DNA from: a candidate division Zixibacteria bacterium HGW-Zixibacteria-1
GTDB taxonomy: Bacteria > Zixibacteria > MSB-5A5 > GN15 > PGXB01
Length of the DNA: 33,687 nt
Direction of reading: 5' to 3'
NCBI GenBank assembly: GCA_002838945.1
Contig: PGXB01000040.1
Span: 1 to 33,687 of the forward strand
This document shows, one piece after another, positions 391-4,265 of this stretch. The position numbers and the translations under genes are program-made. Position 1 is the stretch's first letter. Every line of letters begins with the position of its first letter. Below the pieces are notes generated by a model that worked only from the letters and a program-made list of their open reading frames with translations, was not told where the DNA came from and searched no databases.

Positions 391-937
391 TCACAAAATA
401 GGGAAACTGGATCTTTCAATTTTAATTGGCCCGTTATCAGCACCAATCCAGTCTTTTGCACTCGACCATTTCCATGCTAACGGTGTATTTACCAAGCCTT
501 TTCTTACAGGATTGTTATGCATATAATCAATTGTTTTTGCCAATGCATCGTGAGAAAATATGTTACGATCATATCCGCCGCCATCCTGCCAGAATCTATA
601 AGGAACATTTTTTTTGACCTGTCACCATTAACTGCAATCCAATGGGATAATATCTTTTTAAATAATTTACCATTTTTCTTGATACTGGTTGCTTGATTGA
701 AGTCAGTATCCTGGCTATTGAATATTTCTTCGTATTGGGATAAATAAGTAAATGAACATGATTTGGCATGAACACATAGGCCCATAGGTCAAAAGAATGT
801 TTCTCTCTGGCTTTTATGATCGAGAATACTAAATTTTGGCACGCTCTTTCACTCAAGAGAAAAGGTCGGTTTTTAAAACATGTGAAAGTTAATTCATGGG
901 CATGTCCGACAAAATTGAATTCTTTTCTTTTTCCCAT
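391..937 (-). pseudogene. REP-associated tyrosine transposase (RAYT, HUH/Y1), frameshifted
   Basis: This is a single-strand DNA transposase of the Y1/TnpA-REP family, which acts on REP palindromes. The N-terminal 113 residues (937 to 596) contain HELTFTCFKNRPFL and the HUH motif in FMPNHVHLLIYP (His60, His62). That frame ends at TAG soon after a run of eight A (plus-strand T8, 608-615). Removing one A gives a continuous frame through YRFWQDGGGYDRNIF and TIDYMHNNPVRKGL to a TGA at 391-393. This makes a 181-residue protein of normal family length. The expected catalytic Tyr (in IDYMHNNPV) lies after the shift, so the unshifted product would be inactive. The cause could be decay, a homopolymer sequencing error, or slippage on A8 that makes full-length protein at low level. 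No convincing ribosome binding site is seen. Confidence 0.85.
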
Positions 938-1088: not shown

Positions 1089-1117
1089 TTGATAATTTCC
1101 CTTCTTTATATTATAAT
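1089..1117 (+). promoter_or_regulatory. Sigma-70-type promoter of the predicted selenoprotein gene
   Basis: A TTGATA -35 box (1089-1094) and a perfect TATAAT -10 box (1112-1117) are separated by exactly 17 bp. Transcription would start near 1124, about 30 bases before the ATG at 1156. Confidence 0.6.
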
Positions 1118-1155: not shown

Positions 1156-2322
1156 ATGAAACATGCGGTTATAATCTTATTGGCAATTCTGGTGTTAATC
1201 GCCGCCAATGCCTTTGCCCAGGAAGTCGAGTCTCTCGAGCATGCGTGGTCCATCTCGGCCACATCCGGGAAGCCGGTCCTGATGGAGTTTGTCCACACCG
1301 ACTGAGAATTCTGCCAGCAGGCCGCCCGTGAGGCGGAAACGGAAGACATCATCATCGAGGCGCTCAAGGCGGTGGTGCATGTGCCGCTCAATGTCACGAC
1401 CGATGAAGGGAAGAAGCTCAAGGATGAATACCAGGTCGGCACGACCTACCCGGTCTATATCCTGACCGATCAGAAGGGCGATATCATCACCCGCTGGACC
1501 GGCTATACCGGCGGCGGCAAGGCCCTTGTCAATACCCTGCAATCAAAACTGCGCGATCTGACCACGGTCAGCGCGCGAGAGAATCGTTTCAAGACGGCGC
1601 CGACTTTCGATGACGCCGTCATCCTGGCCCGATATTACACCGACATTTATGAAAATCTCAAGGCGCTCGAATATTTTCGCCAGGCCGAGGAATTGAAAAC
1701 CATCAAGGCTTATGATTTCAGCTATGATATATTCCGTAATTTCGCCAATGCCGCCTGGCTCGATCAGATACCATTCGATTCGGTTCTCCCAGCCGCCGAT
1801 AACGCCCTTATCAATCCCGCCAAAAACCTGAGCAACACGGTCAAAGTGGGGCAGATGATGGCGCGCCTGGCCCGCAAGCTGGGCAAAAATGTCCGGATTG
1901 CCAAGTATCTTCAGACCGGTATCGACGCCACCGCCGGAAGCGCGCAATACAAGGAACTGCATGAGCTTCTGAAGGCAGACTATGCTTTGCAGGTCGAGAA
2001 TGACACCACCAAAGCGATCTCCATCAAAAAAGCCACTATGGGTGCGGACTGGATGAATGAGCGCGACAAGTATTACGAGTTTTCCAAGTGGTGCCTGGAG
2101 CGGGAAATCGATCTGGAAGAAGCCGAGCTTTATGCCCGTCGCGCGGTCGATATGGTTTATCCGGGAAAATACCGCGCCAAAGTGCTCAACACGGTGGCCG
2201 AGATTTGCTATGCCCGTGGCGATAAAGTCGAAGCGGTCAGGATGATCAAACTGGCCATCGACGAGGAGCCGGGAAACGAATTTTATCAGACACAGCTGGA
2301 TAAATTCAGTTCGGATAATTAG
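1156..2322 (+). CDS. Predicted selenoprotein: exported thioredoxin-fold protein with UxxC active site and TPR-like C-terminus
   Basis: Translation from ATG 1156 gives a signal peptide (residues 1-21, ending ANAFA). A thioredoxin-like domain follows: residues 41-49 are VLMEFVHTD, then an in-frame TGA at codon 50 (1303-1305), then EFCQQAA. The TGA stands where the first Cys of CxxC belongs, so reading it as selenocysteine gives U-E-F-C. The same frame continues openly to TAG at 2320-2322 (388 residues), with a strand/cis-Pro region GTTYPVYILTD (Pro99) typical of the fold and a helical TPR-like part (about 140-388, clearest in the last 65 residues). A hairpin suited to a bacterial SECIS follows the TGA. 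An in-frame TAA at 1147 fixes ATG 1156 as the first possible start; the ribosome binding site is weak. Ordinary gene callers would start at GTG 1372 and lose the signal peptide and active site. Probable role: periplasmic or surface disulfide reductase/isomerase. The alternative is a nonsense mutation. Confidence 0.8.
1303..1336 (+). promoter_or_regulatory. UGA codon with SECIS-like hairpin
   Basis: After the in-frame UGA (1303-1305), CCGCC (1322-1326) pairs with GGCGG (1332-1336) around the 5-base loop CGUGA (1327-1331). The loop starts 21 bases after the UGA, inside the spacing known for bacterial SECIS elements (roughly 16-37). It carries a G within its first two bases, a property of SelB-recognised loops. 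The identification as a SECIS is inferred from position and shape. Confidence 0.65.
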
Positions 2323-3085: not shown

Positions 3086-3146
3086 TATATAAATACTGCT
3101 AACGGTCCGAAACATTATTATCAATCTCTAAATGGAGGGACGAGCC

Positions 3147-4265
3147 ATGAGAGTCTCTGGCAAGTCTTTGTGCGTCTTTTTTGGGTCGATTACCGGTCTG
3201 CTATTGCTGGTCATCCTGATCGCCCTGGCATCGGCACCGTTAGCGGCGCAAACCTGCCAACTGAAGGTGGAAGGGGAAGATTCTTACGCATTATCGGGAC
3301 AGAATAATGCCATTATTGATGTCTATTTGGTAAATCAAGTGGACACTGTGGCCGGTTTTGAGTTATGGCTGGTTCTTAATCGGCCCGATATCATGGAATT
3401 TGTCCGCGATACCGTTCTAAAGGCCGATATGTTATATTGGCGGTGTCTGGAATGGGATGGCCTGCTATGTGTCGATTCCAATGATATTACCGATTCAGTT
3501 TTATTATTCGGGGTCGATTATGACTGGCTGACCGCCGATACCCATTATGTCCAGGTCGGAGTTGTTGACACCACCGGGACCCTGATCTCCGGGTGGAACT
3601 ATGTGGCAGCCAGATCGTTTTCTCCGGGTGGGTATGATTTAAAAATAACCGCTATGGCCCATGATTTTACTCCTCCATATAATCCCGGGATTTTGCCGCA
3701 AGATGGAAGCGTCCCCCTGATAAAGCTTCTGGTCAATGTCTATGACCTTCCGGAAGAGATTCAGGATCGCACTGTCGACATATTAATTCAAAGAGATAAT
3801 CTTGACAACTTCTCATTTTCGGATATGCATGGGTTCAGCATCGGCGTTGTCACAGATACTGTGTCTATAGAGAGATGCTTCACCTGCGGACCCGGAATCG
3901 ATCCTCCCTGTGATTTTATGTGGCAGGTTCCCTGCGAAAGTCCCGAGGTCGATTCGGTCTGGTGTTGCGATACGATTCTAACCGGGCGCCTCGATACCAG
4001 CTATGTTTGTATCGTAAATGGTTCTCTCACGTCCGTCACGACGTTCGTTTGCGGCGATGTTGACGGCGGCGGAACGGTGAATATTCTGGATGTCACGCGG
4101 CTGATAAGCTACCTTTACAAGGAAGGGGCGGGGCCGGATGATTTCCGGGCCGCCGATGTCAACGGAAGCTGCTCCACGAATATTCTCGACGTCACAGCCT
4201 TGATATCCTATTTATATAAGCTAGGTTTTCCGATGGCCTGTCCGTATTTCTGGCCCTGCCTGTAA
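3147..4265 (+). CDS. Secreted protein with cohesin-like N-terminal domain and C-terminal dockerin-like repeats
   Basis: A 372-residue exported protein. GGAGG at 3134-3138 fits ATG 3147 better than the ATG at 3132. The N-terminus has a signal/transmembrane segment ending near LAAQT. Residues from about 38 read as a beta-sandwich beginning CQLKVEGED and GFELWLVLNRPDIMEF, reminiscent of cohesin-like domains; this is a fold guess. Residues 302-361 hold two dockerin-like repeats, CGDVDGGGTVNILDVTRLI and DVNGSCSTNILDVTALI, each followed by YLYK. Calcium ligand positions are partly degenerate (Gly and Ser at the fifth position). The same tail ends the protease at 18635-21925. Probable role: cell-surface or matrix protein whose tail binds a partner or the cell surface. 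The partner is not in the window. Confidence 0.8.
   Translation: MRVSGKSLCVFFGSITGLLLLVILIALASAPLAAQTCQLKVEGEDSYALSGQNNAIIDVYLVNQVDTVAGFELWLVLNRPDIMEFVRDTVLKADMLYWRCLEWDGLLCVDSNDITDSVLLFGVDYDWLTADTHYVQVGVVDTTGTLISGWNYVAARSFSPGGYDLKITAMAHDFTPPYNPGILPQDGSVPLIKLLVNVYDLPEEIQDRTVDILIQRDNLDNFSFSDMHGFSIGVVTDTVSIERCFTCGPGIDPPCDFMWQVPCESPEVDSVWCCDTILTGRLDTSYVCIVNGSLTSVTTFVCGDVDGGGTVNILDVTRLISYLYKEGAGPDDFRAADVNGSCSTNILDVTALISYLYKLGFPMACPYFWPCL

Follow-up and report, generated by a model that had tools for sequence, protein, structure and literature searches.

A predicted exported selenoprotein family combining a thioredoxin fold with TPR-like repeats in Candidatus Zixiibacteriota

The window, that is, the whole stretch of 33,687 nucleotides that was analysed, belongs to a genome assembly of 3.83 Mb in 82 contigs. 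It contains a gene whose frame is open apart from one in-frame TGA, the sole one between positions 1156 and 2322, in the context HTD-U-EFC (Table 1). The original prediction, which placed this codon at the first Cys of a CxxC motif, was accurate on both the frame and the position. A promoter named in the same prediction is present, with 11 of 12 consensus matches; it was the best of 6 sites in the region in a consensus scan, with 2.6 expected per shuffle. The proposed signal peptide in front of the UGA looks cleavable when judged by eye, and the orthologues also have hydrophobic N-termini, while the N-terminal helix is of low confidence in the AlphaFold model; from the signal peptide, we infer that the protein is exported. 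Standard annotation had been expected to begin at 1372, and the ORF list indeed gives a 316-aa product from this GTG, without both active-site residues. Orthologues of the complete product are full-length across the phylum, with identities of up to 55%. A scan of the window found 22 TGAs interrupting comparable frames, among which UxxC together with a bSECIS-like hairpin (≤ −7.5 kcal/mol) occurred only at 1303.

Table 1. Features of the predicted selenoprotein gene, in window coordinates.
Feature	Position	Strand	Basis or remark
Sigma-70-type promoter-like site, TTGATA-17-TATAAT	1089–1117	+	TTGATA 1089–1094, TATAAT 1112–1117; consensus only
Complete selenoprotein gene	1156–2322	+	388 aa, TAG stop 2320–2322; frame open apart from single TGA
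Predicted signal peptide MKHAVIILLAILVLIAANAFA, cleavage between A-F-A and QE	1156–1218	+	Judged by eye from a charged start, a hydrophobic core, and AxA
Thioredoxin-fold domain, residues 22–135	1219–1560	+	AlphaFold model; structural match DsbH; Pfam in family
UGA codon read as selenocysteine (predicted), residue 50, first position of UxxC	1303–1305	+	TGA 39, Cys 12 of 51 homologous genes
Resolving Cys53 of U-E-F-C	1312–1314	+	Invariant in family
Bacterial SECIS hairpin CCGCC[CGUGA]GGCGG	1322–1336	+	Loop 1327–1331; −7.7 kcal/mol; comparative support
Truncated ORF by table-11 annotation	1372–2322	+	GTG start, 316 aa; artefact of UGA taken as stop
cis-Pro candidate P99	1450–1452	+	Invariant; position of Trx-fold cis-Pro
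TPR-like helical superhelix, residues 136–388	1561–2319	+	About 14 helices in model; TPR superhelix matches; TPR_2 in family

The AlphaFold model of the protein (pLDDT 90) consists of a thioredoxin (Trx) part followed by a helical superhelix. Among the single-domain matches listed, DsbH of Chlamydia (PDB 2ju5; VIA-align: Z 14.8, rmsd 2.4, 112 aligned, 22% identity) was structurally the best for the Trx part, which also matched a DsbD-C-terminal-like domain and other proteins of the disulfide isomerase-like kind. The Pfam models Thioredoxin_2/7 fell just below their cut-off in the protein itself (26.7 bits for PF13098 vs a cut-off of 27) and were found at E ≤ 0.01 in 35 of 36 family members. 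The TPR-like repeats of the original prediction are supported by the model, by a structural search in which residues 136–388 matched TPR superhelices, and by Pfam TPR_2 in 29 of the 36 members. No NCBIfam model scored above its cut-off for the protein, and a PDB sequence search gave best E-values of only 0.04 and 0.15. Throughout the family, F45, residue 50, C53, and P99 are invariant. Overall, the gene probably encodes an exported selenoprotein composed of a signal peptide, a Trx fold with U-E-F-C at its active site, and a TPR-like superhelix.

The read-through protein was searched against 132 Candidatus Zixiibacteriota genomes, and 51 homologous genes, each scoring >100 bits, were aligned. 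At the column of residue 50, 39 genes have TGA and 12 have TGC or TGT, with no third state, which settles the question, raised with the original prediction, of whether homologues carry Cys here: all 51 have either Cys or UGA. Sequencing error had been another concern, but 38 other genes have a UGA in this place as well; thus, the TGA at 1303 is no read error. The 39 UGA genes are spread over 35 genomes, and two genomes hold one Sec and one Cys paralogue each, the other 10 of the 12 Cys-form genomes being Cys-only. Each UGA gene has a single internal in-frame TGA in its aligned body, and several of them terminate in TGA as an ordinary stop, which argues that UGA is not generally recoded. A reading of UGA as another amino acid, through a general code change or read-through, has nothing beyond the open frame in its favour and seems exceedingly improbable, given that all 12 genes without the UGA have Cys in its place, that homologues terminate normally with TGA, and that a full Sec system is present (see below). 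Equally far-fetched is a true stop, by which the gene would be a pseudogene or would yield the 316-aa TPR protein from the GTG at 1372. This product is what standard ORF calling returns, but the same UGA stands in 39 genes with the frame conserved on both sides, the invariant C53 lies between the UGA and the GTG, Cys is the sole alternative, and the SECIS element is conserved.

The hairpin behind the UGA has a 5-nt loop (CGUGA) on a 5-bp stem, with G at loop position 2 and the loop 21 nt from the UGA. These values lie within the bSECIS criteria of PMC13188914, namely a loop of 3–9 nt, a stem of 4–16 bp, a G within the first two loop nucleotides, a distance of 16–37 nt from the UGA, and an MFE of ≤ −7.5 kcal/mol; the energy of −7.7 kcal/mol is that of the hairpin by itself, and the 51-nt stretch as a whole has another MFE fold. 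A hairpin with a loop G was found in all 39 UGA genes, with the loop starting 21 nt after the UGA. The loop is of the CGUGA/CGGGA type and 5 nt long in all but one of these genes, where the best pairing leaves a 3-nt loop; most family members have a CCGCY/RGCGG stem, and a second subfamily has one of the GTTCGCT/GGCGAAT type. When third-position entropy was compared over the 108 four-fold-type columns of the gene, its four lowest values (0.00, 0.20, 0.48, and 0.56 bits vs a median of 1.75) fell on codons +6, +7, +8, and +10 after the UGA, exactly where the SECIS lies. For the Arg of the loop, 38 of the 39 UGA genes use CGT or CGG, two codons with a share of 33% elsewhere in the same genes. Both sides of the stem change in five of seven pairs, and its covariation score is 0.278 vs 0.179 after shuffling (0 of 500 as high), with slid controls at ≤ 0.092. 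The claim of a SECIS-like hairpin 21 bases after the UGA is thus upheld by conservation and covariation and not by single-sequence folding: the isolated 51-nt RNA (1300–1350) shows no folding advantage over shuffled versions (z = −0.01), and its MFE structure differs from the hairpin. Among the tests of the hairpin, folding was the only one that gave no support, and the case for it rests on comparative evidence.

The machinery for Sec insertion, which the original prediction had proposed as a check, is present in the genome that contains the window: a tRNA-Sec with a UCA anticodon (75 bits, above the Rfam cut-off), SelB with SelA adjoining, and two SelD proteins. The SelD at L020 (1450–2523, plus strand) has an in-frame UGA at the canonical GUxxK site and represents a second selenoprotein of this genome. 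At L019 (1396–3597, minus strand), SelD stands behind an aminotransferase class V (cysteine desulfurase-like) domain in one 733-aa fusion. Across the phylum, tRNA-Sec was detected in 105 and SelB in 113 of the 132 genomes. Strict thresholds were passed by SelB or tRNA-Sec in 31 of the 35 genomes with a UGA form, and SelA was found in a 32nd. Neither SelA, SelB, nor tRNA-Sec was found at the thresholds used in G069, G094, and G097, which also carry UGA genes. The selA, selB, and selC genes are often close together, and these three genomes are incomplete MAGs; a missing contig is therefore the likely explanation. As far as sequence comparison can tell, it is nearly certain that the UGA at 1303–1305 is decoded as Sec.

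All ten Cys-only genomes retain the Sec machinery, so the Cys forms do not track its loss. On a maximum-likelihood tree built without the Sec and SECIS columns, parsimony counts 9 changes between Sec and Cys (8–10 in bootstraps), at least five of them forced by well-supported branches, a count that gives no direction of change. Of the 12 Cys genes, one (L066, in G112) keeps an intact hairpin and another (L060, in G038) a half-preserved one, as if a change from Sec to Cys had been recent in these two. A scan of genome contigs with the single protein gave no match, and an alignment-based scan returned 22 loci, all in records named Candidatus Zixiibacteriota or, in a few cases, just ‘bacterium’. 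The latter scan recovered some but not all of the known members, and Cys codons are required by one of its two patterns; hence, the family may extend beyond this phylum.

No conserved neighbours were found around the homologues, and no substrate is indicated by their surroundings; within the window, the genes next to the selenoprotein gene are unrelated to redox. Just upstream lies a fragment of an IS200-like transposase (Y1_Tnp; 596–937, minus strand). Downstream, a Dockerin type I domain protein is encoded at 3132–4265 (plus strand), with relatives near two other homologues.

A second exported family of Trx-TPR proteins, of about 290 aa and with UxWC or CxWC, is present in 121 of the 132 Zixiibacteriota genomes, many of them with TGA. 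The TGA stands at the UxWC site in at least 11 of 32 loci checked, most of the others having Cys, and by its codons this family is predicted to carry Sec as well. Its loci are L105–L134 and L076–L078, with a Cys copy in the genome of the window (L079, G000:C3:42388-43167). In some loci, no simple hairpin of the usual bSECIS shape was detected in the region that the scan could reach. One member, L123 (G010:C1:1677154-1677966), has Ser at both active-site positions (SKWS) and may be redox-inactive; a paralogue with UGA is present in G010 as well.

Regarding function, we favour, with some confidence, an envelope thiol-disulfide reductase in which the TPR part serves as a docking domain. DsbH, the best of the single-domain matches listed for the Trx part, is described as a periplasmic dithiol oxidoreductase of the reducing type that resembles Trx and DsbD-gamma (PMC5193440). 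It differs from the present protein in having Cys rather than Sec and no TPR domain, and the protein scores 16.7 of the 190 bits of the NCBIfam DsbH equivalog, far below the cut-off, so the likeness is one of fold only. In the proposed mechanism, SelB with Sec-tRNA would bind the hairpin just past the UGA, and Sec would be inserted as the attacking residue of UxxC. After export, the targets would be disulfides (or sulfenic acids) in envelope proteins, which the selenol of Sec50 would reduce or rearrange; the mixed selenenylsulfide would be resolved by Cys53. The C-terminal superhelix would most likely hold substrates or a partner complex. Recharging from the cytoplasm would probably run through DsbD: a full-length DsbD with a Trx_7 end is encoded in the same genome and is a plausible electron donor. 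We infer the reductive direction, the role of the TPR part, and the donor. To this explanation as a whole, we assign a probability of about 0.75.

The main rival to this reading is a chaperedoxin with Sec that would correspond, in the envelope, to CnoX/YbbN: the TPR part would act as a holdase on unfolded clients, and the Trx domain would protect the thiols of these clients. CnoX (PDB 3QOU), which is not among the 50 structural matches listed, likewise has an N-terminal Trx domain followed by TPR, and this common domain order speaks for the comparison. However, CnoX is a cytoplasmic partner of GroEL with SxxC or WCGPC and is no selenoprotein, whereas the present protein has a signal peptide and UEFC; passing substrates to GroEL would be out of reach for an exported protein. 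In addition, the Trx fold is nearer to DsbH, and no YbbN model in NCBIfam matched. We regard a chaperedoxin as rather unlikely. A similarly low likelihood is assigned to other chemistry at the UxxC, such as peroxide turnover, selenium or metal handling, or the passing of electrons to a bound partner. For many selenoproteins with UxxC or CxxU, the redox role is unknown (PMC13188914), and no conserved neighbour names a substrate, both of which leave room for such activities; the resemblance of the Trx domain to disulfide reductases and DsbD-gamma-type domains, in turn, favours thiol-disulfide exchange. The protein may also form part of a phylum-wide selenium-based thiol-disulfide system of the envelope, comprising at least two exported Trx-TPR selenoprotein families whose TPR parts would dock clients onto the selenol; this wider proposal is tentative, with odds slightly short of even.

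The closest described selenoproteins are found in a catalogue of 119 prokaryotic selenoprotein families and subfamilies (PMC13188914, published in 2026), which includes a PF13098 UxxC thiol:disulfide interchange protein (its Table 1), a Trx7/PDZ protein, and several Trx-like families. The PF13098 selenoprotein has in common with the present protein the UxxC and, at a score just under the Pfam cut-off, the class of Trx-like domain; as described in the catalogue, it is defined by PF13098 and UxxC alone. The selenoprotein thioredoxin (PF00085, UxxC) has the same arrangement of Sec first and a resolving Cys but is a stand-alone Trx, in contrast to an exported fusion with a TPR superhelix. The original prediction did not recognise a Trx-TPR protein with Sec as described, in agreement with the catalogue, where no TPR selenoprotein is listed among the 119 families and subfamilies; open-licence papers on selenoproteins with Zixibacteria/Zixiibacteriota or TPR contained no report of the family either. 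Given this absence and the lack of an NCBIfam model above its cut-off, the family therefore represents a new selenoprotein family and architecture made from known parts.

The family adds an unlisted member and an unlisted domain combination to the known prokaryotic selenoprotein set, and the distribution of SelB (113 of 132 genomes) indicates wide use of Sec in an almost uncultured phylum. The active site of the protein is lost under standard annotation, and metagenome catalogues are thus likely to hold such proteins as truncated TPR proteins. The repeated exchange of Sec and Cys, accompanied by a missing or broken SECIS in all but one of the 12 Cys genes, constitutes a natural experiment on the purpose of Sec.
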